Source: Verrucomicrobiota bacterium (GTDB lineage: Bacteria > Verrucomicrobiota > Kiritimatiellia > SS1-B-03-39 > UBA6053). From it: 46,240 nt of DNA. The notes beneath the pieces were generated by a model. The model was not told where the DNA came from, searched no databases, and worked only from the letters and a program-made list of their open reading frames with translations. Position numbers and translations under genes: made by a program. This document shows positions 10,226 to 27,864 of the stretch, piece by piece (within the stretch, counting starts at the first letter, position 1; each line of letters begins with the position of its first letter). The stretch spans positions 1 to 46,240 of the forward strand of contig JAFIGD010000040.1 in NCBI GenBank assembly GCA_020831625.1, read 5' to 3'.

Positions 10226-11869
10226 ATGACCCCGACTGTAAACGAACTGCCTGAATGGAAAGCCCTGGAAACCCATGCCGCCGGGAGTGCGGAACAGCAT
10301 CTGCGGGATTTGTTCGCCTCGGATCCGGGGCGGGCGGAGCGTTATGTCTGGCGGCGGGACGGCTTTTTGGTGGATTATTCCAAAAACCGGGTGACGGATG
10401 AGACGATGGCGCTTTTGTTTGCGCTGGCGCGGGCCACGGGGGTTGAAGCGGCGCGGGACGCGATGTTCCGCGGGGAGAAGATCAATGAAACCGAGGGGCG
10501 GGCGGTGCTGCACACGGCGCTGCGGGCTCCGGCGGATGCGGAGATTGTGGTGGACGGTGAAAATGTGGTGCTGGCGGTGCAGGCGGTGTTGGCGAAGATG
10601 GAGGCTCTGTCGCGCCGGGTGCGGAGCGGAGACTGGAAAGGGCACACGGGAAAGCGGATTCGGAATGTGGTGAATATCGGGATCGGCGGATCGGATTTGG
10701 GGCCGGTGATGGTGGTGGAGGCGCTGAAGCCCTATGCGGACCGCGGGTTGACGCTGCGCTTTGTGTCCAATGTGGACGGAACCCATCTGGCGGAGTGTGT
10801 GCGGGATCTGGATGCGGCGGAAACGCTGTTTATTGTGGCCAGCAAGACGTTCACGACTCAGGAAACGCTCACCAACGCCCATTCGGCCCGAACCTGGCTG
10901 GTGGATCAGTTGGGGGACGAGGCGGCGGTGGCGAAGCACTTTGTGGCACTGTCGACGAACGCGGAGGCGGTGAAGGCCTTCGGCATTGATGAGGCGAACA
11001 TGTTTGAATTCTGGGACTGGGTGGGCGGCCGCTATTCGCTGTGCAGCGCCATCGGGCTGCCGATCATGCTGGCGGTGGGGCCGGAGAATTTCCGGGACCT
11101 GCTGGCGGGCTATCACGAGATGGATGAGCATTTCCGCACCGCGCCGCTGGAGGAGAATCTCCCGGTGATTCTGGCGATGCTGGGGGTGTGGTACAACAAC
11201 TTCCTGGGGGCGGACACGCAGGCGATTCTACCGTACGATCAGTATCTGCACCGCTTCGCGGCGTATTTTCAGCAGGCGGACATGGAATCGAACGGGAAAT
11301 CCACCGACCGGCAGGGGCTTCGGGTCGGGTATCAGACCGGGCCGGTGCTGTGGGGCGAGCCGGGCACGAACGGTCAGCACGCGTTTTATCAGTTGATCCA
11401 CCAGGGCACGAAGCTGATCCCGTGTGATTTCATCGGGTTCGCGGAGTCGCACAATCCGGTGGGCGATCACCATGTGAAGCTGATGAGCAATTATTTTGCG
11501 CAGACCGAGGCACTGGCCTTTGGAAAGACGCCGGAGGATCTGCGGGCCGAAGGAGTGAACGAGGCGCTGGTGCCGCACAAGACCTTCGAAGGCAACCGGC
11601 CGAGCAACTCGTTTTTGATTCAGAAACTCACCCCCTTCACACTGGGTCAGTTGATTTCGGCCTATGAACACAAAATCTTCACCCAGGGCATTGTCTGGAA
11701 CATTTTCAGCTTTGATCAGTGGGGCGTTGAGTTGGGGAAAGTGCTGGCGAAGGTGATTCTGCCCGAGCTGGAGGGCGAAAGCACGCCGGAGAAACACGAC
11801 GCCTCCACCAACCGGCTGATCGCGGCGTTTAAGGAGATGAGGGGGGGAGGAATGACGAGTGACGAATGA
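10226..11869 (+). CDS. pgi: Glucose-6-phosphate isomerase
   Basis: 547 residues, the size of bacterial/eukaryotic-type PGI, which interconverts glucose 6-phosphate and fructose 6-phosphate in glycolysis. Visible signatures are [12 protein letters not shown] (SIS sugar-phosphate loop), [50 protein letters not shown] and the C-terminal [12 protein letters not shown], all diagnostic of the family. The start has AAGGA 7 nt upstream. The last residues (GGGMTSDE) and the stop codon are encoded by the beginning of a heptamer repeat array, so the natural end has been replaced or extended by repeat DNA. Divergently transcribed from the efflux operon. Confidence 0.97.
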
Positions 11870-11922
11870 CGAATGACGAATGACGGGTGACGAATGACGA
11901 GTGACGGGTGACGAATGACGAA
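11853..11922. repeat. Heptamer tandem array TGACGAA/TGACGGG, ten units
   Basis: Ten consecutive 7-mers of the form TGACGRR run from 11853 to 11922 (TGACGAG, TGACGAA x3, TGACGGG, TGACGAA, TGACGAG, TGACGGG, TGACGAA x2). The first units overlap the 3' end of pgi and supply its last codons. Related single units recur around 12112-12132. This opens the 572-base stretch 11870-12441, which has no gene and consists mostly of short repeats. Confidence 0.9.
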
Positions 11923-11931
11923 TAAGGGTAG

Positions 11932-11957
11932 ACCACGGATAGAAGACCACGGATATC
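11932..11957. repeat. Short direct repeat CCACGGATA
   Basis: The word CCACGGATA occurs twice (11933-11941 and 11948-11956), 15 nt apart, between the heptamer and hexamer arrays. It resembles the CCACGGATGG repeat at 3749-3770. Confidence 0.5.
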
Positions 11958-11961
11958 GTTT

Positions 11962-12009
11962 CTTAGTCTTAATCTTAATCGTAATCCTAATCCTAATCGT
12001 AATCCCAAT
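11962..12009. repeat. Hexamer array (CNTAAT)n, eight units
   Basis: Eight 6-mers close to CTTAAT/CGTAAT/CCTAAT/CCCAAT follow each other without gaps. The array is the approximate reverse complement of the TTAAGA/ATTAAG units at 12175-12206, so the two arrays form a long inverted pair about 165 bp apart. Any reading frame through it gives an artificial hydrophobic Ile/Leu repeat. Confidence 0.85.
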
Positions 12010-12132
12010 CGAACCCGATTCCGAGCGAAAGAAGAATGTGAACGTCTCGGGTGGCGTGACGGGAGCGCCAATCGCCGTATTGGCGGGGCGAAGGGGGTGG
12101 TGAATGGACTGGTGACGGGTTACGAATGACGG

Positions 12133-12210
12133 GATCAGGATCAGGATCGGGATCGGGTTCGGGACTGGGTCGGAATAGGATTAAGATTAAGATTAAGATT
12201 AAGATTGAGG
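12133..12210. repeat. Hexamer array grading from GATCAG/GATCGG to ATTAAG
   Basis: Thirteen consecutive 6-mers: GATCAG x2, GATCGG x2, GTTCGG, GACTGG, two transitional units, then the TTAAGA core repeated four times and a final degenerate unit. The register stays in multiples of six while the sequence drifts, suggesting slipped-strand expansion of a degenerate hexamer. Confidence 0.8.
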
Positions 12211-12249
12211 GGGGAACCAATGCAGGGCCAACGGCCCGACTTTGCAGAG

Positions 12250-12274
12250 CCCGGTCCGTCAGGACCGGGTTTTT
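12250..12274 (+). terminator. Rho-independent terminator-like hairpin
   Basis: CCCGGTCC (12250-12257) pairs perfectly with GGACCGGG (12262-12269) across a 4-nt loop and is followed by TTTTT (12270-12274). It lies 380 nt after pgi, beyond the repeat arrays. A smaller GGGCC-AAC-GGCCC hairpin sits just upstream (about 12224-12236), so an unannotated short transcript ending here is possible. I see no gene in 12275-12441. Confidence 0.7.
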
Positions 12275-19889: not shown

Positions 19890-19919
19890 ACGAAACGGAA
19901 ATGGAAACCGTGAAACGCG

Positions 19920-20012
19920 CGAGGCGGGCTTGCCCGCTGAGCGCAAACATCTCATTTCAAGAACCGCCCACACCCAAGAACCCCGCAAGGAACGGGCTTG
20001 CCCATACCGCGC
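19920..20012 (-). repeat. Palindromic repeat cluster 1 (inverted A and B modules)
   Basis: Read on the minus strand this region carries the same blocks as clusters 2 and 3. There is an A module (CTGCGCGG ... GGGCAAGCCCGTTCCTTGCGGGG, here with a decayed hairpin), the boundary word ATGAGATG (19948-19955 as CATCTCAT), and a B hairpin with stem GCGGGC/GCCCGC around TT at 19924-19937. It lies 3' of the minus-strand gene ending at 20082, so the A module is again in terminator position and orientation. Confidence 0.7.
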
Positions 20013-20081
20013 AGTCCTTCTGTCCACATGACGGACAAATCCGCGTGTTTCACAACGCCTTGGCGTCCGTCAAAGAGGGCT

Positions 20082-20846
20082 CTATTCGGATTCGTCCGGC
20101 TCCGGTGTTTGGCGAAGGGGAATTTGCACCAGTTTTCCGCCGAGGTGGATGGAGCCGGGAAAACGGGGGGGGAAGACGACAAACAGCAGGCTTTGCGTAG
20201 TGTCGCATTCGAAGGTGTTTTCATAAAGCCTAATGAGTTCGTCTTCTTCGGTCTTGATCGCGATAACCAGGGCAGCTCTTGGATGAATGGGAAGCGGGGC
20301 ATTGAGGCCTGGGTTTATTGTCGCGGTTCGGGTATTGTTATCAGGACGGCCCACAGCACCGATGTAACTGATTGGCGTGGTGTTGTAGATGCCTAAATAT
20401 CCCGGCGGAAGCGCCCCGGGGCGAATGTCAATCCACTGGATATTATATCGCAACCCTTCCTCAGGGTATGAGGGATTGGGAAGGAAAAGAAGCATTACCT
20501 CTGATTGATTTTCGGGGAGATTCACCCGGGCCATGGGTGTTCGTTCGATGCGCTCAGATCCATTGGATTGCTCGATCCTGTTTTCTTCAAAAAAGGTGAT
20601 CGGCATCGGCCCCTCATAGTGATACCGGCGGGATAAACCTGAGGTGGGAAAGCCCGTGCGTGAAGAACCGGTGAGCTGACCGTTTTCGTCGAACACTCCG
20701 AAACGGATGTTCCGTATGCGCGAATTATCGAGCAGGTGGAATTCGACGGACCGCATGGGCGGGGGATCATTTTCTGACCTTGTGATCGGAAACATAAGCA
20801 TTACCGTTGCGGTAAGCAGAATTAGATGTCTGATTCGTTTAGCCAT
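20082..20846 (-). CDS. Predicted secreted protein of unknown function
   Basis: 254 residues with a basic N-terminus and a hydrophobic stretch (about 7-21) that looks like a signal peptide or anchor (HLILLTATVMLMFPI). The rest is soluble with short beta-like segments (VEFHLLDNSRIRNIRFGVFD, RVNLPENQSEVMLLFLPN) and a low-complexity acidic end. I do not recognise a family. Its start overlaps the 3' end of the pseudopilin-like gene by 25 nt on the same strand, so the two are translationally coupled and probably work together, perhaps as an accessory surface or minor-pilin protein. Repeat cluster 1 follows it. Confidence 0.7.
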   Translation of the reverse strand: MAKRIRHLILLTATVMLMFPITRSENDPPPMRSVEFHLLDNSRIRNIRFGVFDENGQLTGSSRTGFPTSGLSRRYHYEGPMPITFFEENRIEQSNGSERIERTPMARVNLPENQSEVMLLFLPNPSYPEEGLRYNIQWIDIRPGALPPGYLGIYNTTPISYIGAVGRPDNNTRTATINPGLNAPLPIHPRAALVIAIKTEEDELIRLYENTFECDTTQSLLFVVFPPRFPGSIHLGGKLVQIPLRQTPEPDESE

Positions 20847-23800
20847 TTGAAGGAGAGGATTTTGAATTTCCGGCCAAAGCCGTCGGCGTTTTCGGCCATT
20901 TCGGGGAGGGAGGATACGGGGTCAAACGGGGTGATAACACGCTGAACGACCGCCTCGGCCCAGACCCGGGAAAGAATCACGCCTTCCGAGGTTCGACTGT
21001 CGCCATAGGCGCGGAGGATGAACGTGTCGGAGCGGGTGCTGATAAAGGGGGCGATTGTGGTCAGAATGTCCGCCTGGGAGAGCCAAGAAGGTGTTCGCTC
21101 TTCAGGCGTAACGGCCTCGAGGGTTGTGCTGGATGTTGGAACAAAGATGCGCCGCATATGTCCGGCGGCAAGGCGGGGGAAACGGGCCGCATCGACATCG
21201 CCGCGGAGAAGGCTTTCGATCAAGGGTTCTCCGCTTTCGTAGGGCTCGGTGATAAGTTCGTTCAACGAGAAGTAGGGTCTTCCGGCCTGTTGATTCCGGT
21301 TTTGAACGGCCTCCGCCAGAGCCCGGGTGAATTCTTCCAGCAGGGCGGTGTTGTTCGCGTCATAATCTGTGCTGTTATCATTCATTCCTGTGCGAGGTGT
21401 CAAAAAAGTCACGCCGGGTTTCATGTTCAGCAGCGGCCGATCATTTTCATGATTATAAGACAGGATGTCGGTTTGAAAAATTTCCTGAATCGACTGAGTG
21501 AAGCGTGTAAATCCAGGAGGGTAGTCGGTGTTGTTTGTTTGAATGTCTGATCCGCTGATGTGTACTGTGTCATGTAGGTTAGTATCCCGGGTGGCATGGG
21601 CGAAATTTGAAAAGAGGCTGTTGCCCATGACCGATTTCCACGCCTCCGGCGAAACGCTGTTGATGTTGAAGATTCCTTGAACCTCAAGGGAGACGGCCGC
21701 ATTTTCTCCAAGTGCTTCAAAGTCGGATTCTGTATACTCGCTCAATCCGAGATTTTCAGAACGGGCCAGAGCATACCTCGGGTGTGGAAGGGTTGTGGGA
21801 TTGGCTGAAAAATCCGGCATGGAAATTCCGGGCTGAATTCCTGATAACAGATAATCGTCAAAAAATTGATTTAAGGCTTCTCCCCCCCAGGGGTTTCCGA
21901 TGGAATAGGGTGGACTGCCTTCTATGTGTAGATGCTGTAATTGCCCGATAGAGATCAACGGCTGACGGGGAAGTTCAAACAGAGGGATGTCCCGGCGGGT
22001 GTCGCGGCTCCAGGGGCCCGAGCTTAACACACGGTCAAAAAGAAAAAACTCCTGATTTTGATTTACGCTGAGAATACTGCTCAGTTCTGAGTCTCCCGGG
22101 CTGTATGACAACGCGTTTTCATGCATTGTATGACTGTTGGAAATAACATCGTCACCGAAAGATGGCCTCGGTGTGCGCGGATCGGAATGCCGAATCCACG
22201 CGCTCTGATCGCCGCCGTAGGTTGTTCCTCTTTCAATCACACGGAATCGCCATGTTAAAAAACGTTGCTCCCAGCTACCCAAGCTGCCGACGTTATTATT
22301 TTCCACATCATCGTAAGCGAATCCATGGTAGCGTGCTAAAATCTGGCCTCCGTTTTCCGGGGCTCTGCGTAAGGTAATGTTCAGGGTTGTTTCCGGCATT
22401 TCATAGCCAACTCTATAAAGGTGGGTTCCCGTTCCGGTTGGGAATGTGGCGGCGGGCACTCCGGCTCGGTTCAATCGGGATTGATTCGCTGACCGTGATC
22501 CAAAGGTGGTAAATTCGGGTTCTTCATCCGCAGGACCAATCCAATACAGCAATCGCCCCGGCGCATGAACACGGGTGTCAAAGGCGTCGGCCTGAACAAT
22601 GGAATACCTGTTATTTATGTTGGTGTGGCGTTGCTCGCGATCAAGCCGCAGGGTAACTGTATTGTCACCGTAGCTGCCGTGGACATCGAATTCATGTTGC
22701 CAGATTTCGTTATCCGTATCATCTGACAGTGTCATTGTGAAGGGTTCAAATCCTGTGATTTCAAGTATTAAGTCTTCAGCGGGTATTCCGGAGGTGTAGG
22801 GATTCCACATTTCCAGGATGAAGCTGAACATAAGTCGGGCGTTGGGCGACTCGTTTGTTCGCCGGGGGCTGATCTGCAATCCGAAGTCGGTAATAATGGG
22901 CACCACGGAGTGGACGATTTCTCCGGAAGAAGGGGTCAGGTTTGAGGGCGGGGTGATGCGGTGCATTCTTCGGAGATCTGAAGGAGACTGTATCAGGAAA
23001 TTTCCGGGGTTGGGATCGACCATGTAAGAAGGAAAATTCATGTAGGCCTCAAAGCCGGGGCCGAGAAGGGACGGGTTCATGGAGAGATCTTTTTTCACGC
23101 CGCCGTTGAGCGGATGGGTGAGCAGTCCCCGGGCGTTGTGGGTATAATGATGAAACCCGCCGTTATGGCGGGGATCCTCTCCGGGTCCGAAGTGTTGAAA
23201 ATCCTCCAGACTGAGGGTTTTCCGTTTTTCATCCTGTAGATCGGGGTCGCTGAAATCGGGAGGTGTCGAGAAGGCGAGTTCTCCGCGCTGACGATATGGA
23301 ACGGTAAACCGTTTGCGGTCGATTTCGGTTTGATGGAGTCCGTTGATGGTGGTGCCGCCGGGAGGATCGAAGGGGTTTGTAAGGGCAATGCTGGCTTTGA
23401 CGCCCTCGTCGCCGACCCAATAGGCATAGCTCGCGTTCTGACCGGGAATGCCGACCAGGGGAGCACGGACAAGATTTTCCGCGGTTGCGCCGCTTCCCAG
23501 GGTTCCGGGCCCGACCAAAAGAATGCTTTGGTTCACCGGGATTGGATTTGCCGGATTGAAATTCGCGCCGGGCGGTCCGGAAATCAGCCATTCAGGAGAT
23601 CCGGAGACGGTTTGTGTGTTCCAGACCCCGGTGACATGACGGTTGGTGTTGTGGGCCGAGGAGCCGAGGATGGCGGCGGTAGCGGTGGCGCGTTGATCCG
23701 GGCCGGCGGTGATTTGCAACTGCGCGAGGGCGAGTTCCAGGCCGAGGCGGGCGTTGGCTCTGGCGAGGTGCTGGTCCTGGTGGTTGCTGATGTTGCGGAG

Positions 23801-23914
23801 TTCGAGGCGGACGTGGGTGCTGAATGCGAGGACCATCATGGTCATCAAGCCCATGACCAGAAGGGTCACGAGCAGAGCGCTGCCGTTTTTGCCGGGATGG
23901 GTTGGCGGGTCCAT
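20822..23914 (-). CDS. Very large pseudopilin-like protein (Verru_Chthon cassette protein A-like)
   Basis: 1030 residues from the second ATG (23914). That start has AGGA 7 nt upstream; the ATG at 23920 would be only 1-2 nt from it. After a short basic leader (PGKNG) comes SALLVTLLVMGLMTMMVLAF, the hydrophobic helix of a type IV prepilin or GspK/PilX-type pseudopilin, with probable cleavage after G and no Glu at +5, as in GspK. A helical heptad region follows (HLARANARLGLELALAQLQ). The remaining roughly 950 residues are soluble. The architecture resembles the TIGR02600 Verru/Chthon cassette A proteins as I remember them. The partner cassette genes are not here; only the small secreted gene downstream is linked. 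The role (pilus tip or secretion) is unknown. Confidence 0.68.
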   Translation of the reverse strand: MDPPTHPGKNGSALLVTLLVMGLMTMMVLAFSTHVRLELRNISNHQDQHLARANARLGLELALAQLQITAGPDQRATATAAILGSSAHNTNRHVTGVWNTQTVSGSPEWLISGPPGANFNPANPIPVNQSILLVGPGTLGSGATAENLVRAPLVGIPGQNASYAYWVGDEGVKASIALTNPFDPPGGTTINGLHQTEIDRKRFTVPYRQRGELAFSTPPDFSDPDLQDEKRKTLSLEDFQHFGPGEDPRHNGGFHHYTHNARGLLTHPLNGGVKKDLSMNPSLLGPGFEAYMNFPSYMVDPNPGNFLIQSPSDLRRMHRITPPSNLTPSSGEIVHSVVPIITDFGLQISPRRTNESPNARLMFSFILEMWNPYTSGIPAEDLILEITGFEPFTMTLSDDTDNEIWQHEFDVHGSYGDNTVTLRLDREQRHTNINNRYSIVQADAFDTRVHAPGRLLYWIGPADEEPEFTTFGSRSANQSRLNRAGVPAATFPTGTGTHLYRVGYEMPETTLNITLRRAPENGGQILARYHGFAYDDVENNNVGSLGSWEQRFLTWRFRVIERGTTYGGDQSAWIRHSDPRTPRPSFGDDVISNSHTMHENALSYSPGDSELSSILSVNQNQEFFLFDRVLSSGPWSRDTRRDIPLFELPRQPLISIGQLQHLHIEGSPPYSIGNPWGGEALNQFFDDYLLSGIQPGISMPDFSANPTTLPHPRYALARSENLGLSEYTESDFEALGENAAVSLEVQGIFNINSVSPEAWKSVMGNSLFSNFAHATRDTNLHDTVHISGSDIQTNNTDYPPGFTRFTQSIQEIFQTDILSYNHENDRPLLNMKPGVTFLTPRTGMNDNSTDYDANNTALLEEFTRALAEAVQNRNQQAGRPYFSLNELITEPYESGEPLIESLLRGDVDAARFPRLAAGHMRRIFVPTSSTTLEAVTPEERTPSWLSQADILTTIAPFISTRSDTFILRAYGDSRTSEGVILSRVWAEAVVQRVITPFDPVSSLPEMAENADGFGRKFKILSFKWLNESDI

Positions 23915-24080
23915 TTTCATATCCTACACATTTAAAGACGAAAGGTTCAATGCGCAAACGACATACCGTTAGAAATCCGTGAGGTGTTTGTATTTACTAC
24001 AAATTTGTATGTTGAAGGGGTTGGGTTTGCCTTTTTTGGTGTTTTATTGAGTTGGTGTGTCAAATTTGCAGGGGTTGGGG

Positions 24081-24352
24081 ATGAGATGGCTGCGCGGAAC
24101 GGGGCGAGCCCGTTCCTTGCTTGTGTTTTTTTGGGGCGCGGTCGTGAAATGAGATGGTTCCGCTTCCCCGGGCAAGCCGGGAAAGCGGGTGTTTTCGTTT
24201 AGCCATTGGCCGTGGAATGAGATGATTGCACTTCCCCAGCAAGCTGGGAAAGCGCTGGGAGAATGTGATGATTGCGCCTCTCCCCGGGCAAGCCGGGAAC
24301 GCGCTGGGGGAATGAGATGATTGCTCCTCTCCGGGCAAGCTGGGAAAGCGCT
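24081..24352 (+). repeat. Palindromic repeat cluster 2 (one A module, four B modules)
   Basis: The word ATGAGATG (once ATGTGATG) recurs at 24081, 24149, 24217, 24263 and 24312, so units are 68, 68, 46 and 49 nt long. The first unit is an A module: hairpin GGAACGGG/CCCGTTCC (24096-24103/24109-24116), then TTGCTTGTG and a T-run. The other four are B modules: GCTTCCCC, GGCAAGC or AGCAAGC, then GGGAAAGCG, forming hairpins with a GCAAGC core. The cluster fills most of the 490-base gap 23915-24404 between two divergent genes; no coding sequence is seen there. Confidence 0.85.
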
Positions 24353-24404: not shown

Positions 24405-24806
24405 ATGAGTGATCCGTCTTCCACACCGCCATCCGAAAATGTCACCGAGTTTCAGCGGCGGGTGTATGCGGCCTGTTCGCGGATTCCGCCGGGAAAGGTG
24501 GCGACGTATGCGGGGCTGGCGCGTTCGATTGGCTGCGGGTCGCCGCGGGCGGTGGGGCAGGCGCTGAAGCGGAATCCGTTCGCGCCGGCGGTGCCGTGCC
24601 ACCGGGTGGTGGCTTCGGATTTGACGATCGGGGGCTTCATGGGACGCCGGGAGGGGGAGGAGGTTTCCCGCAAGCGCGGGCTGCTGGAGGCGGAGGGGGT
24701 GCGGATTGAAAACGGTGGGCGGATAAAAGCGTGTTGTCTGTTTGAATTTTCACTTGCCAAGTCTGAAATGCCCGCGTATGAACATCCCCATCGTTCGGGC
24801 GATTAG
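24405..24806 (+). CDS. MGMT-family O6-alkylguanine-DNA alkyltransferase (short form)
   Basis: 133 residues. It consists of the C-terminal DNA-binding/active-site domain only: FQRRVYAACSRIPPGKVATY, then SPRAVGQAL and the acceptor motif PCHRV with C65, followed by GGFMGRREG. Such proteins repair alkylated bases by transferring the alkyl group to the cysteine, or (without Cys) act as ATL sensors; here the Cys is present. The N-terminal Ada/Ogt domain is missing, as in many MGMT-like short proteins. The C-terminal tail after about residue 107 looks non-conserved and reads into tRNA-Val: the stop codon TAG (24804-24806) is inside the tRNA D-arm. Confidence 0.85.
   Translation: MSDPSSTPPSENVTEFQRRVYAACSRIPPGKVATYAGLARSIGCGSPRAVGQALKRNPFAPAVPCHRVVASDLTIGGFMGRREGEEVSRKRGLLEAEGVRIENGGRIKACCLFEFSLAKSEMPAYEHPHRSGD
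24754..24782 (+). promoter_or_regulatory. Candidate promoter of tRNA-Val
   Basis: TTGCCA (24754-24759), a 17-nt spacer and TATGAA (24777-24782), 14 nt before the mature tRNA 5' end. It lies inside the 3' coding part of the alkyltransferase gene. Confidence 0.5.
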
Positions 24807-25676: not shown

Positions 25677-27503
25677 ATGCAAGATTCCCCCGTCGTGAAA
25701 GACGATCTGTACCGTATCCGTCACAGCCTGGCCCACGTGATGGCCCAGGCGCTCCTGGAAGTCCGGCCCGGCAGCAAGCTGGGCTTCGGTCCGCCGATTG
25801 ACAACGGATTCTATTACGATTTCATTTTGAGTGAGCCGCTGACCGAGGCGGACTTCAAGGAAGTCGAGAAACGGATGCGGAAGATCATCAATCAGGATCA
25901 GGTCTTCGAAGAGGAGAATCTGTCTTACGCGGACGCCATGGCGCGTCTGGAGGAGATGGGGGAGCCGTACAAGAAAGAGTACGCGCAGGAGTTGTTTGAC
26001 AAGAAGGGCATTGAGACGCTGCGGTTTTACCGCAACGGTCCGTTTCTGGACATGTGCGAGGGTCCGCATGTGCCGAGCACCAAAGCGATTCCGGCGGACG
26101 GGTTCAAACTGCGTTCGGTCGCCGGGGCTTACTGGCGCGGGGACAGCCGCAATGTGATGATGACCCGCATCTACGCCTGGGCCTACACGTCCAAGGAGGA
26201 GCTGAAGGCGGCGATTCAGGCGCACGAAGAGGCGCTGAAGCGGGATCATAAGAAGCTGGGCAAGGAATTGGGGATCTTTAAGATCGATGAGCAGGTGGGC
26301 AAGGGCCTGCCGCTGTGGCTGCCGAACGGCACCGTGATTCGGGATCAGCTGCAGCGTTATGTGGAGGAGCTGGAGTTCCGCGCGGATTACAAACGGGTGA
26401 CCACGCCGCTGCTGGCGAAAACCAGTTTGTACCACACCACCGGTCATTTGCCGTATTACAAAGAGGGCATGTTTCCGTTCATGGAGATCAAGGAAACCTC
26501 CCGTGAAGGCGGTGAAGTGGTGGAGGAATATGTCCTCAAGCCCATGAATTGTCCGCACCACCATCTTATTTTCGCGTCGGAAAAGCGCAGCTACCGCGAT
26601 TTGCCGCTGCGGCTGGCCGAGTACGGCATCTGTCACCGCTATGAGGATTCCGGCTCGCTGTCGGGTCTGCTGCGGGTTCGGGCGATGTGCATGAATGACG
26701 CGCACATTTACTGCACCGAGGAGCAGATTGAGGCGGAGTTCCTGGCGGTGATGGACATGCACAAGACGCTCTATGACAAGCTGGGGATTAAACATTATCA
26801 CATGCGGCTGTCGACCTGGGATCCGGACGATCCCAAAGGCAAGCAGAAGTATGTGGACAATCCCGAAGCCTGGGCGCGCACCCAGGATCTGGTGCGTTCG
26901 GCCATGGAAAAATCCGGACTGCCGTTCAAGGAAGTCAAAGGGGAAGCCGCGTTTTACGGGCCGAAAATTGATTTTCAGTTCAAGAGTGTGACCGGCCGTG
27001 AAGAGACGGCCTCCACCAATCAGCTTGATTTCGCGGTGCCGCCGCGGATGAACCTGGTGTACACCGATAAAGACAACACCGAGCGGCATCCGTACATTAT
27101 TCACCGGGCGCCGGCGGGAACGCACGAGCGCTTCGTGGCGTTTTTGGTGGAGCATTTCGGTGGCGCGTTCCCGACCTGGCTGGCGCCGGTTCAGGTGCGG
27201 GTGATTACGGTCAGTGATGATTTCCGCGAATACGCGGACAAGCTGGTGGCGGAGCTGCGGGAGCATCTGGTCCGCGCGGAGGTGGATCCGGCCCATGACA
27301 CCATGGGCAAGAAGATCCGCAACGCCGCCAAGGCGAAGATTCCGAACGTGCTGGTCATTGGTGAAAAAGAGCAGTCTGACGGAACCGTGACCTGGCGCCG
27401 CTACGGCGTCGAGGAGCAGCAGACGATGGCCGCCGGTGATTTTAAAGATGAAGTTCTGCGCCGCATCCGCGGGCGCGAACTGGATGCCGCGCGGGTGTTT
27501 TAA
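25677..27503 (+). CDS. thrS: Threonyl-tRNA synthetase lacking the TGS domain
   Basis: 608 residues. The usual 60-residue N-terminal TGS domain is absent; the protein starts directly with the editing domain, whose H16xxxH20 and C127/H131 residues are present (RHSLAHVMAQ, MCEGPHVP). In the class II core the zinc ligands are C292 (KPMNCP), H343 (NDAHIYC) and H476 (IIHRAPAG), with motif 2 CHRYEDSGSLSGLLRVR. The anticodon-binding domain includes FPTWLAPVQVRVI. It charges tRNA-Thr. It is in an operon with infC, in the order infC-thrS rather than thrS-infC, and is followed by repeat cluster 3 with a terminator-like hairpin. Confidence 0.97.
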   Translation: MQDSPVVKDDLYRIRHSLAHVMAQALLEVRPGSKLGFGPPIDNGFYYDFILSEPLTEADFKEVEKRMRKIINQDQVFEEENLSYADAMARLEEMGEPYKKEYAQELFDKKGIETLRFYRNGPFLDMCEGPHVPSTKAIPADGFKLRSVAGAYWRGDSRNVMMTRIYAWAYTSKEELKAAIQAHEEALKRDHKKLGKELGIFKIDEQVGKGLPLWLPNGTVIRDQLQRYVEELEFRADYKRVTTPLLAKTSLYHTTGHLPYYKEGMFPFMEIKETSREGGEVVEEYVLKPMNCPHHHLIFASEKRSYRDLPLRLAEYGICHRYEDSGSLSGLLRVRAMCMNDAHIYCTEEQIEAEFLAVMDMHKTLYDKLGIKHYHMRLSTWDPDDPKGKQKYVDNPEAWARTQDLVRSAMEKSGLPFKEVKGEAAFYGPKIDFQFKSVTGREETASTNQLDFAVPPRMNLVYTDKDNTERHPYIIHRAPAGTHERFVAFLVEHFGGAFPTWLAPVQVRVITVSDDFREYADKLVAELREHLVRAEVDPAHDTMGKKIRNAAKAKIPNVLVIGEKEQSDGTVTWRRYGVEEQQTMAAGDFKDEVLRRIRGRELDAARVF

Positions 27504-27510
27504 GCGGGGG

Positions 27511-27746
27511 ATGAGATGACTGCGCGGAACGGGGCGAGCCCGTTCCTTGCTTGTTTTTTTTGGGGGGCCGGGTCGTGGAATGAGATGATTCCGCTTCCCC
27601 AGCAAGCTGGGAAAGCGTGGGTGGGATGAGATGGCTGCGCGGAACGGGGCGAGCCCTTTCCTTGCTTGTTTTTTGAGGGGCCGGGTCGTGGAATGAGATG
27701 ATTACGCCTCCCCAGCAAGCTGGGAAAGCGCTTTTTCACGGACCAA
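27511..27746 (+). repeat. Palindromic repeat cluster 3 (A-B-A-B)
   Basis: ATGAGATG recurs at 27511, 27580, 27626 and 27693, giving units of 69, 46 and 67 nt plus a final B unit. The A units contain GGAACGGG/CCCGTTCC hairpins (the second with one arm mismatch, CCCTTTCC) followed by TTGCTTG and a T-run. The B units contain TTCCCCAGCAAGCTGGGAA. Further right, 27795-27864 is an inverted A module, preceded by a B-like palindrome ACATGAGC/GCTCATGT (27769-27786) with entirely different stem letters. Together they fill the 369-base gap 27504-27872, which has no gene. Confidence 0.88.
27526..27561 (+). terminator. Terminator-like hairpin of the first A module, after thrS
   Basis: GGAACGGG pairs with CCCGTTCC around GCGAG, then TTGCTTG and eight T (27554-27561). 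The T-run is a few nt further from the stem than usual. It lies 22 nt after the thrS stop, on the same strand. Confidence 0.6.
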
Positions 27747-27820
27747 CAATAAACGCGCTGTCAGCAAGACATGAGCTTGCTCATGTTGCGCAGTCATCTC
27801 ATATCAAGGAAACGTCCCCC

Positions 27821-27864
27821 AAAAAACACCCCGCAGGGAACGGGCTTGCCCCGTTCCCTGCGGG
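27821..27864 (-). terminator. Terminator of the metF-dtxR-hemW operon (inverted A module)
   Basis: A perfect 15-bp stem (27830-27844 with 27850-27864) with a 5-nt loop, followed on the minus strand by a T-run (27821-27826). It starts 8 nt after the stop codon of the last operon gene. Confidence 0.8.

Follow-up and report, generated by a model that had tools for sequence, protein, structure and literature searches.

Short palindromes that lie behind a conserved unpaired tag and occur in many copies, as dimers and in tandem clusters, are characteristic of the REP/BIME/REPIN repeats, which are extragenic, occupy convergent or unidirectional regions and are found close to 3' ends, as far as the available text of these reports goes (PMC3733652, PMC3116915, PMC8266576). 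BIMEs act as bidirectional terminators, and the expression 'mobile terminators' is used too, according to the accessible part of the work on them (PMC2965389). The pneumococcal SPRITE, a dispersed terminator-shaped repeat with a single 18-bp stem and a long U-rich tract, is enriched between convergent genes and lies near gene 3' ends, and its authors suggested co-option as terminators in the portion of their paper at hand (PMC3049150). In Neisseria and Pasteurellaceae, dispersed uptake sequences supply terminator hairpins at many gene ends; these signals are 9-11 nt long, generally number 1000 or more copies and require two copies in inverse orientation for a hairpin, as the available excerpt describes (PMC1852404). 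RepRanger separates REPs from T-tailed hairpins in the available part of its description (PMC12306157), so a repeat combining both would be filtered out by it.

The repeat family described here joins REPs and T-tailed terminators, two classes that annotation tools keep apart, in a single element. The window, that is the whole stretch of 46,240 nt analysed, is one contig (JAFIGD010000040.1) of the assembly of a Verrucomicrobiota bacterium (GCA_020831625.1; 4.89 Mb, 111 contigs, 96% complete). With the REP/BIME/REPIN repeats the family has in common the short palindromes behind a conserved unpaired tag, the many copies, the dimers and tandem clusters, and the extragenic location in convergent or unidirectional regions close to 3' ends. 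The tag, however, is ATGAGATG and neither GTAG nor CGTC; a T-run is built in, and a linked RAYT was looked for and not found at the loci examined. It resembles SPRITE, compared by description only, in dispersal, terminator shape, convergent enrichment and proximity to gene 3' ends, and differs in that each unit has two hairpins, the head is conserved, tandem as well as inverted composites occur and the host genome is unrelated. As with uptake sequences, a dispersed repeat would furnish hairpins at gene ends, but here the hairpin lies within one longer unit that exists in tens of copies. By analogy, SPRITEs, BIMEs and uptake-sequence terminators can be regarded as precedents for a ATGAGATG-family repeat with a terminator-like hairpin; an earlier note on this DNA had considered a spreading repeat that supplies termination unusual, but the idea is already known from SPRITE (PMC3049150).

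In the gap between thrS and a minus-strand operon, in the order metF, iron-dependent repressor, hemW and a 223-aa gene without a Pfam match, the plus strand carries two A-B units arranged head-to-tail and the minus strand a single inverted unit (Table 1). In nearly all of the modules in this gap, a palindrome whose loop is of the GCAAGC- or GCGAGC-type comes directly after the head ATGAGATG. The first A module begins 7 nt past the thrS stop and is co-oriented with the gene, as the earlier note had proposed, with its hairpin at 27526-27546 and a T8 run ending at 27561; its predicted RNA fold reaches -21.7 kcal/mol (z -3.7). The inverted copy with a perfect 15-bp stem, said to follow the metF-hemW operon by 8 nt, is likewise where it was placed, 8 nt behind the stop of the last gene, and folds at -35.8 (z -7.4). 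At both sites (27526-27561 and 27864-27821) the transcribed strand shows a G+C-rich hairpin with a T-run immediately behind it, which is the anatomy of an intrinsic terminator. Overlooked until now were the second A-B unit, which 27626-27730 forms in its own right, and the single head common to A, B and further hairpins.

The generalization that hairpin and then T-run follow the stop codon in each case holds for two of the three gene-end copies named, those of thrS and the metF-hemW operon, and fails in cluster 1. There the A copy (about 20016-19984, minus strand), thought to be placed likewise after the gene ending at 20082, begins about 65 nt past that stop; its stem is broken (fold z +0.8), and its tail, GGGGTTCTTGGG, contains no T-run of 4. 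Cluster 2 does sit between divergent genes, as had been stated, flanked by 20822-23920 on the minus strand and by an ORF with a methylguanine-methyltransferase domain at 24405-24806 on the plus strand.

Table 1. Genes and repeat modules of the window (positions in the 46,240-nt stretch)
Feature	Position	Strand	Remark
Decayed A of cluster 1, with B (head 19955) behind it	19913..20016	-	without a stable A fold or a T-run of 4
Cluster 2 A module, T7 tail	24081..24132	+	between divergent genes
Cluster 2 B-type modules	24149..24350	+	heads 24149, 24217, 24263, 24312
thrS, threonine--tRNA ligase	25677..27503	+	TIGR00418; gene upstream of A1
A module 1 (A1): head ATGAGATG, hairpin, TTGC	27511..27550	+	stem 27526-27546
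U-rich tail TTG-T8 of A1	27551..27561	+	terminator-like
B module 1: head and hairpin	27580..27617	+	without T-run
A module 2	27626..27674	+	T6 tail, one stem pair broken
B module 2	27693..27730	+	
B-position module of inverted unit	27769..27802	-	head at 27802, stem ACATGAGCAAGCTCATGT
Inverted A module	27821..27864	-	perfect stem of 15 bp (27864-27830) with GTG-T6 behind it, to 27821; has lost its head
Last gene of metF/repressor/hemW operon, 223 aa	27873..28544	-	gene upstream of inverted A

Genome-wide, the head pattern was found 138 times at no more than 2 mismatches, versus 7 in a control with the pattern read backwards, and A hairpins 27 times versus 0; the inventory of head positions was drawn from the first places among the 138 and is incomplete. 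Further copies are probably hidden, because at 12 contig ends a copy is no more than 400 nt away. At 1 mismatch the head search returned 78 copies in this genome and 0-7, mostly 1-3, in 38 relatives (control 0-1), a blast search with the A-B unit found none in 11 relatives, and one exact 21-nt pattern was present in 0 of 84,980 species, a set from which the bacterium's own genome was possibly left out. The family thus appears, by these sequence searches, to be lineage-limited. A viral contig carrying the pattern was taken as a chance match, with no hairpin unit of the ATGAGATG family around it. Judged by thrS, the nearest named genomes are MAGs of the PVC group, and a MAG with Kiritimatiellia in its title has a thrS of 71% identity.

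The modules were sorted into A, A', B, C and D, and 3 of 25 rows matching the A' pattern (B modules) and 3 of 46 matching the B pattern (D modules) were dropped ahead of the counts. The A-B unit, about 105-115 nt long, is a head-to-tail pair of hairpins, each after the conserved 8-nt head ATGAGATG, with heads about 65-69 nt apart and a T-run/G-run spacer between. A second sub-family takes a head-to-head, 4-hairpin form, B-A'/C-D, of about 230-255 nt, which folds as one in the single copy folded and is often arrayed at a spacing of 330-490 nt. Tandem arrays with this period, flanking DNA included, occur at loci L244 (C31:46190-47025), L250, L264, L268, L231 and L237, and at two further loci, L253 and L255 (C59:93795-93990 and C75:4546-4701), a head-to-head A pair is 92% identical over 270 nt, the loci being otherwise different. 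The stem of A' differs from that of A, and the T-run and G-run are common to both. Two-sided changes affect 7 of 8 predicted stem pairs among the 43 B units, i.e. covariation, and the head constancy of these units is partly a product of the way in which they were picked, as the B pattern required the head. For A, covariation says little, because its stem is nearly invariant, with two-sided changes in 1 of 11 pairs.

A T-run of at least 4 after the hairpin belongs specifically to whichever hairpin comes first in a pair: it is present in 15/27 A and 22/22 A' modules, versus 2/43 B, 3/17 C and 0/23 D, and a tail score of at least 2 is reached by 18/27, 19/22, 2/43, 9/17 and 1/23, respectively. 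The remaining 12 of the 27 A copies are without a T-run of 4. A strict hairpin-plus-T test was passed by 11/27 A modules versus 6/132 background gene ends (0.7 in shuffles), so that canonical terminators are otherwise rare in this genome; only 3/22 A' hairpins passed, owing to stem mismatches. Judged by anatomy, the A modules resemble intrinsic terminators and could terminate transcription.

The same spacer may be read at the level of DNA, as a determinant of mobilisation or recombination, the hairpins of the element acting as single-stranded DNA without appreciable termination. A G-run follows the T-run in most A' and many A copies, and GTCGTGGA or GTTCGTGGA comes next, before the B head, none of which a terminator needs; moreover, A' copies with no co-oriented stop anywhere near carry T-runs that are just as complete. 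Yet the T-run begins a few nt past the stem, the place it has in intrinsic terminators, and B and D hairpins almost always lack it. We consider this reading quite unlikely, and the two roles are not exclusive. It is still more improbable, indeed very much so, that the hairpins serve chiefly as post-transcriptional stabilisers of 3' ends or as Rho-pause sites, a role suggested for REPs, and that termination is only a secondary effect. REPs are reported near the 3' ends of ORFs in the available text of one source (PMC3733652), and the B hairpins are stable without T-runs, but such a role leaves the module-specific T-run unexplained, and the present results fit termination equally.

The placement of the copies relative to genes was evaluated at 37 loci, 28 of which have both neighbours known (13 convergent, 12 tandem and 3 divergent). 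Convergent regions are enriched in copies, with 13/28 loci versus 7758/43483 background intergenic bases (17.8%; p about 5e-4), the background being made up of the window and of 20 stretches, each 20 kb long, chosen at a distance from known copies. The first gene caller, based on codon usage, misread the gene to the right of cluster 2 and was replaced by a 3-periodic Markov caller; both gave the same main results. A control of the Markov caller on 100 kb of reversed sequence, run at its minimum score of 8, still yielded 100 calls; genes were afterwards called at a score of 15, and weak neighbours may be false. A depletion of divergent regions seen with the first caller (1/28, p 8e-4) was lost with the second (3/28, p 0.11) and was discarded. 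Convergent enrichment alone fits tolerance, and REPs and SPRITEs show the same pattern.

Orientation relative to the upstream gene was dropped as a test over all copies, being always satisfied in convergent regions; either orientation there matches an upstream gene, and therefore only tandem regions inform. In these the orientation of A modules relative to the upstream gene, which the earlier note had set beforehand as the test that could overturn its proposal, shows no bias, with 5 copies co-oriented and 10 anti (p 0.30; 9 and 11 with the first gene caller). Nor is there an excess of A copies within 30 nt behind a co-oriented stop: 6 were seen versus 5.4 expected (22 resolved of 27) under a model in which each element is dropped in its own intergenic region at random position and orientation. 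Among the 39 resolved A/A' copies, only 8 combine a T-run of at least 4 with a co-oriented stop no more than 100 nt upstream.

These results bear directly on the earlier note's reading of A modules as portable terminators, taken here to be under selection and retained by the host where they sit correctly oriented at gene ends. Dispersal, terminator anatomy and convergent enrichment stand; a bias of orientation and a nearness to stops beyond random do not. What speaks for selection, apart from the rarity of canonical terminators at background ends, is the retention of the T-run: a run of at least 6 is found in 5/6 A copies behind a co-oriented stop versus 3/17 elsewhere (p 0.009), a contrast chosen post hoc. 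It weakens to 5/6 versus 8/17 at T-runs of at least 4 (p 0.14), and to 4/5 versus 3/7 (hand-computed p 0.25) among the better-kept copies, with at least 89 bits in blast. T-run retention is the single sign of upkeep at gene ends, and copy age may explain it. With orientation and placement as they are, we regard the selected-terminator proposal as unlikely.

We favour, as probable, the interpretation that the A-B unit is a non-autonomous, REP-like dispersed element whose terminator-like first hairpin is its own, and whose gene-end copies are tolerated and sometimes perhaps co-opted. The first hairpin with its T-run would be part of the element itself, and where a copy comes to lie co-oriented behind a gene, as it does behind thrS and behind the metF-hemW operon, the T-run would be the point of transcript release. 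We infer in this way mobility, termination in vivo and any co-option: termination would be a by-product of insertion that is sometimes kept by the host, and gene 3' ends would gather copies mainly because insertions are tolerated there. Tolerance would presumably account for most of the gene-end location, and the copies behind thrS and behind the metF-hemW operon may have been co-opted. Repeat copies landing just behind a gene could end that gene's message. If A terminates transcription, the family represents a natural series of intact, decayed, misplaced and inverted copies, by which one can ask whether hosts keep terminators that originate from mobile DNA.

As for mobilisation, the ATGAGATG family behaves as REPs do but departs from them in its tag and in having no RAYT linked to it among the loci examined. 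It is a high-copy extragenic palindrome of about 20-40 bp, as REPs are, with the basic unit head-to-tail; its tag ATGAGATG is neither GTAG nor CGTC, and no RAYT among the Y1/RAYT loci examined is flanked by the same repeat. IS200-type and RAYT-type genes are present in the genome, and no family member lies within about 1.5-3 kb of the Y1_Tnp / REP_Tyr_transpos loci examined; the genome being 96% complete, a missing gene is possible. The flanking genes share no transposase among the 25 commonest of 163 Pfam families (scan of the 66 flanking proteins outside the window, of 72 in all). In relatives, the DNA 3' of thrS yielded no empty site, and with it no target duplication, because thrS synteny is lost in them. 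A more far-reaching version, rather doubtful to us but conceivable, would be a mobile element confined to this lineage, with a new tag and a mobilising enzyme acting in trans. Such an element would have a true intrinsic terminator built into its transposition unit and retained in both sub-families in spite of their different stems, and by spreading it would install terminators in a terminator-poor genome.

One RAYT (on contig C53) is flanked on both sides by another palindrome, of 37 nt, and constitutes with it a RAYT/REP pair separate from the ATGAGATG family. This palindrome is also present in the window at 12061-12098, and 11 genome copies exist at no more than 3 mismatches. The window contains, in addition, minisatellites at 11843-11926 (GAATGAC/GAGTGAC units) and 11930-12209 (GATTAAG units), which reappear next to 4-hairpin elements and where a multi-copy RAYT-like gene has its 3' end. 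Next to them, 12224-12269 on the minus strand matches the Rfam family Acido-Lenti-1 RNA (39.1 bits, cut-off 37), and the plus strand at the same positions reads as a hairpin followed by T5.
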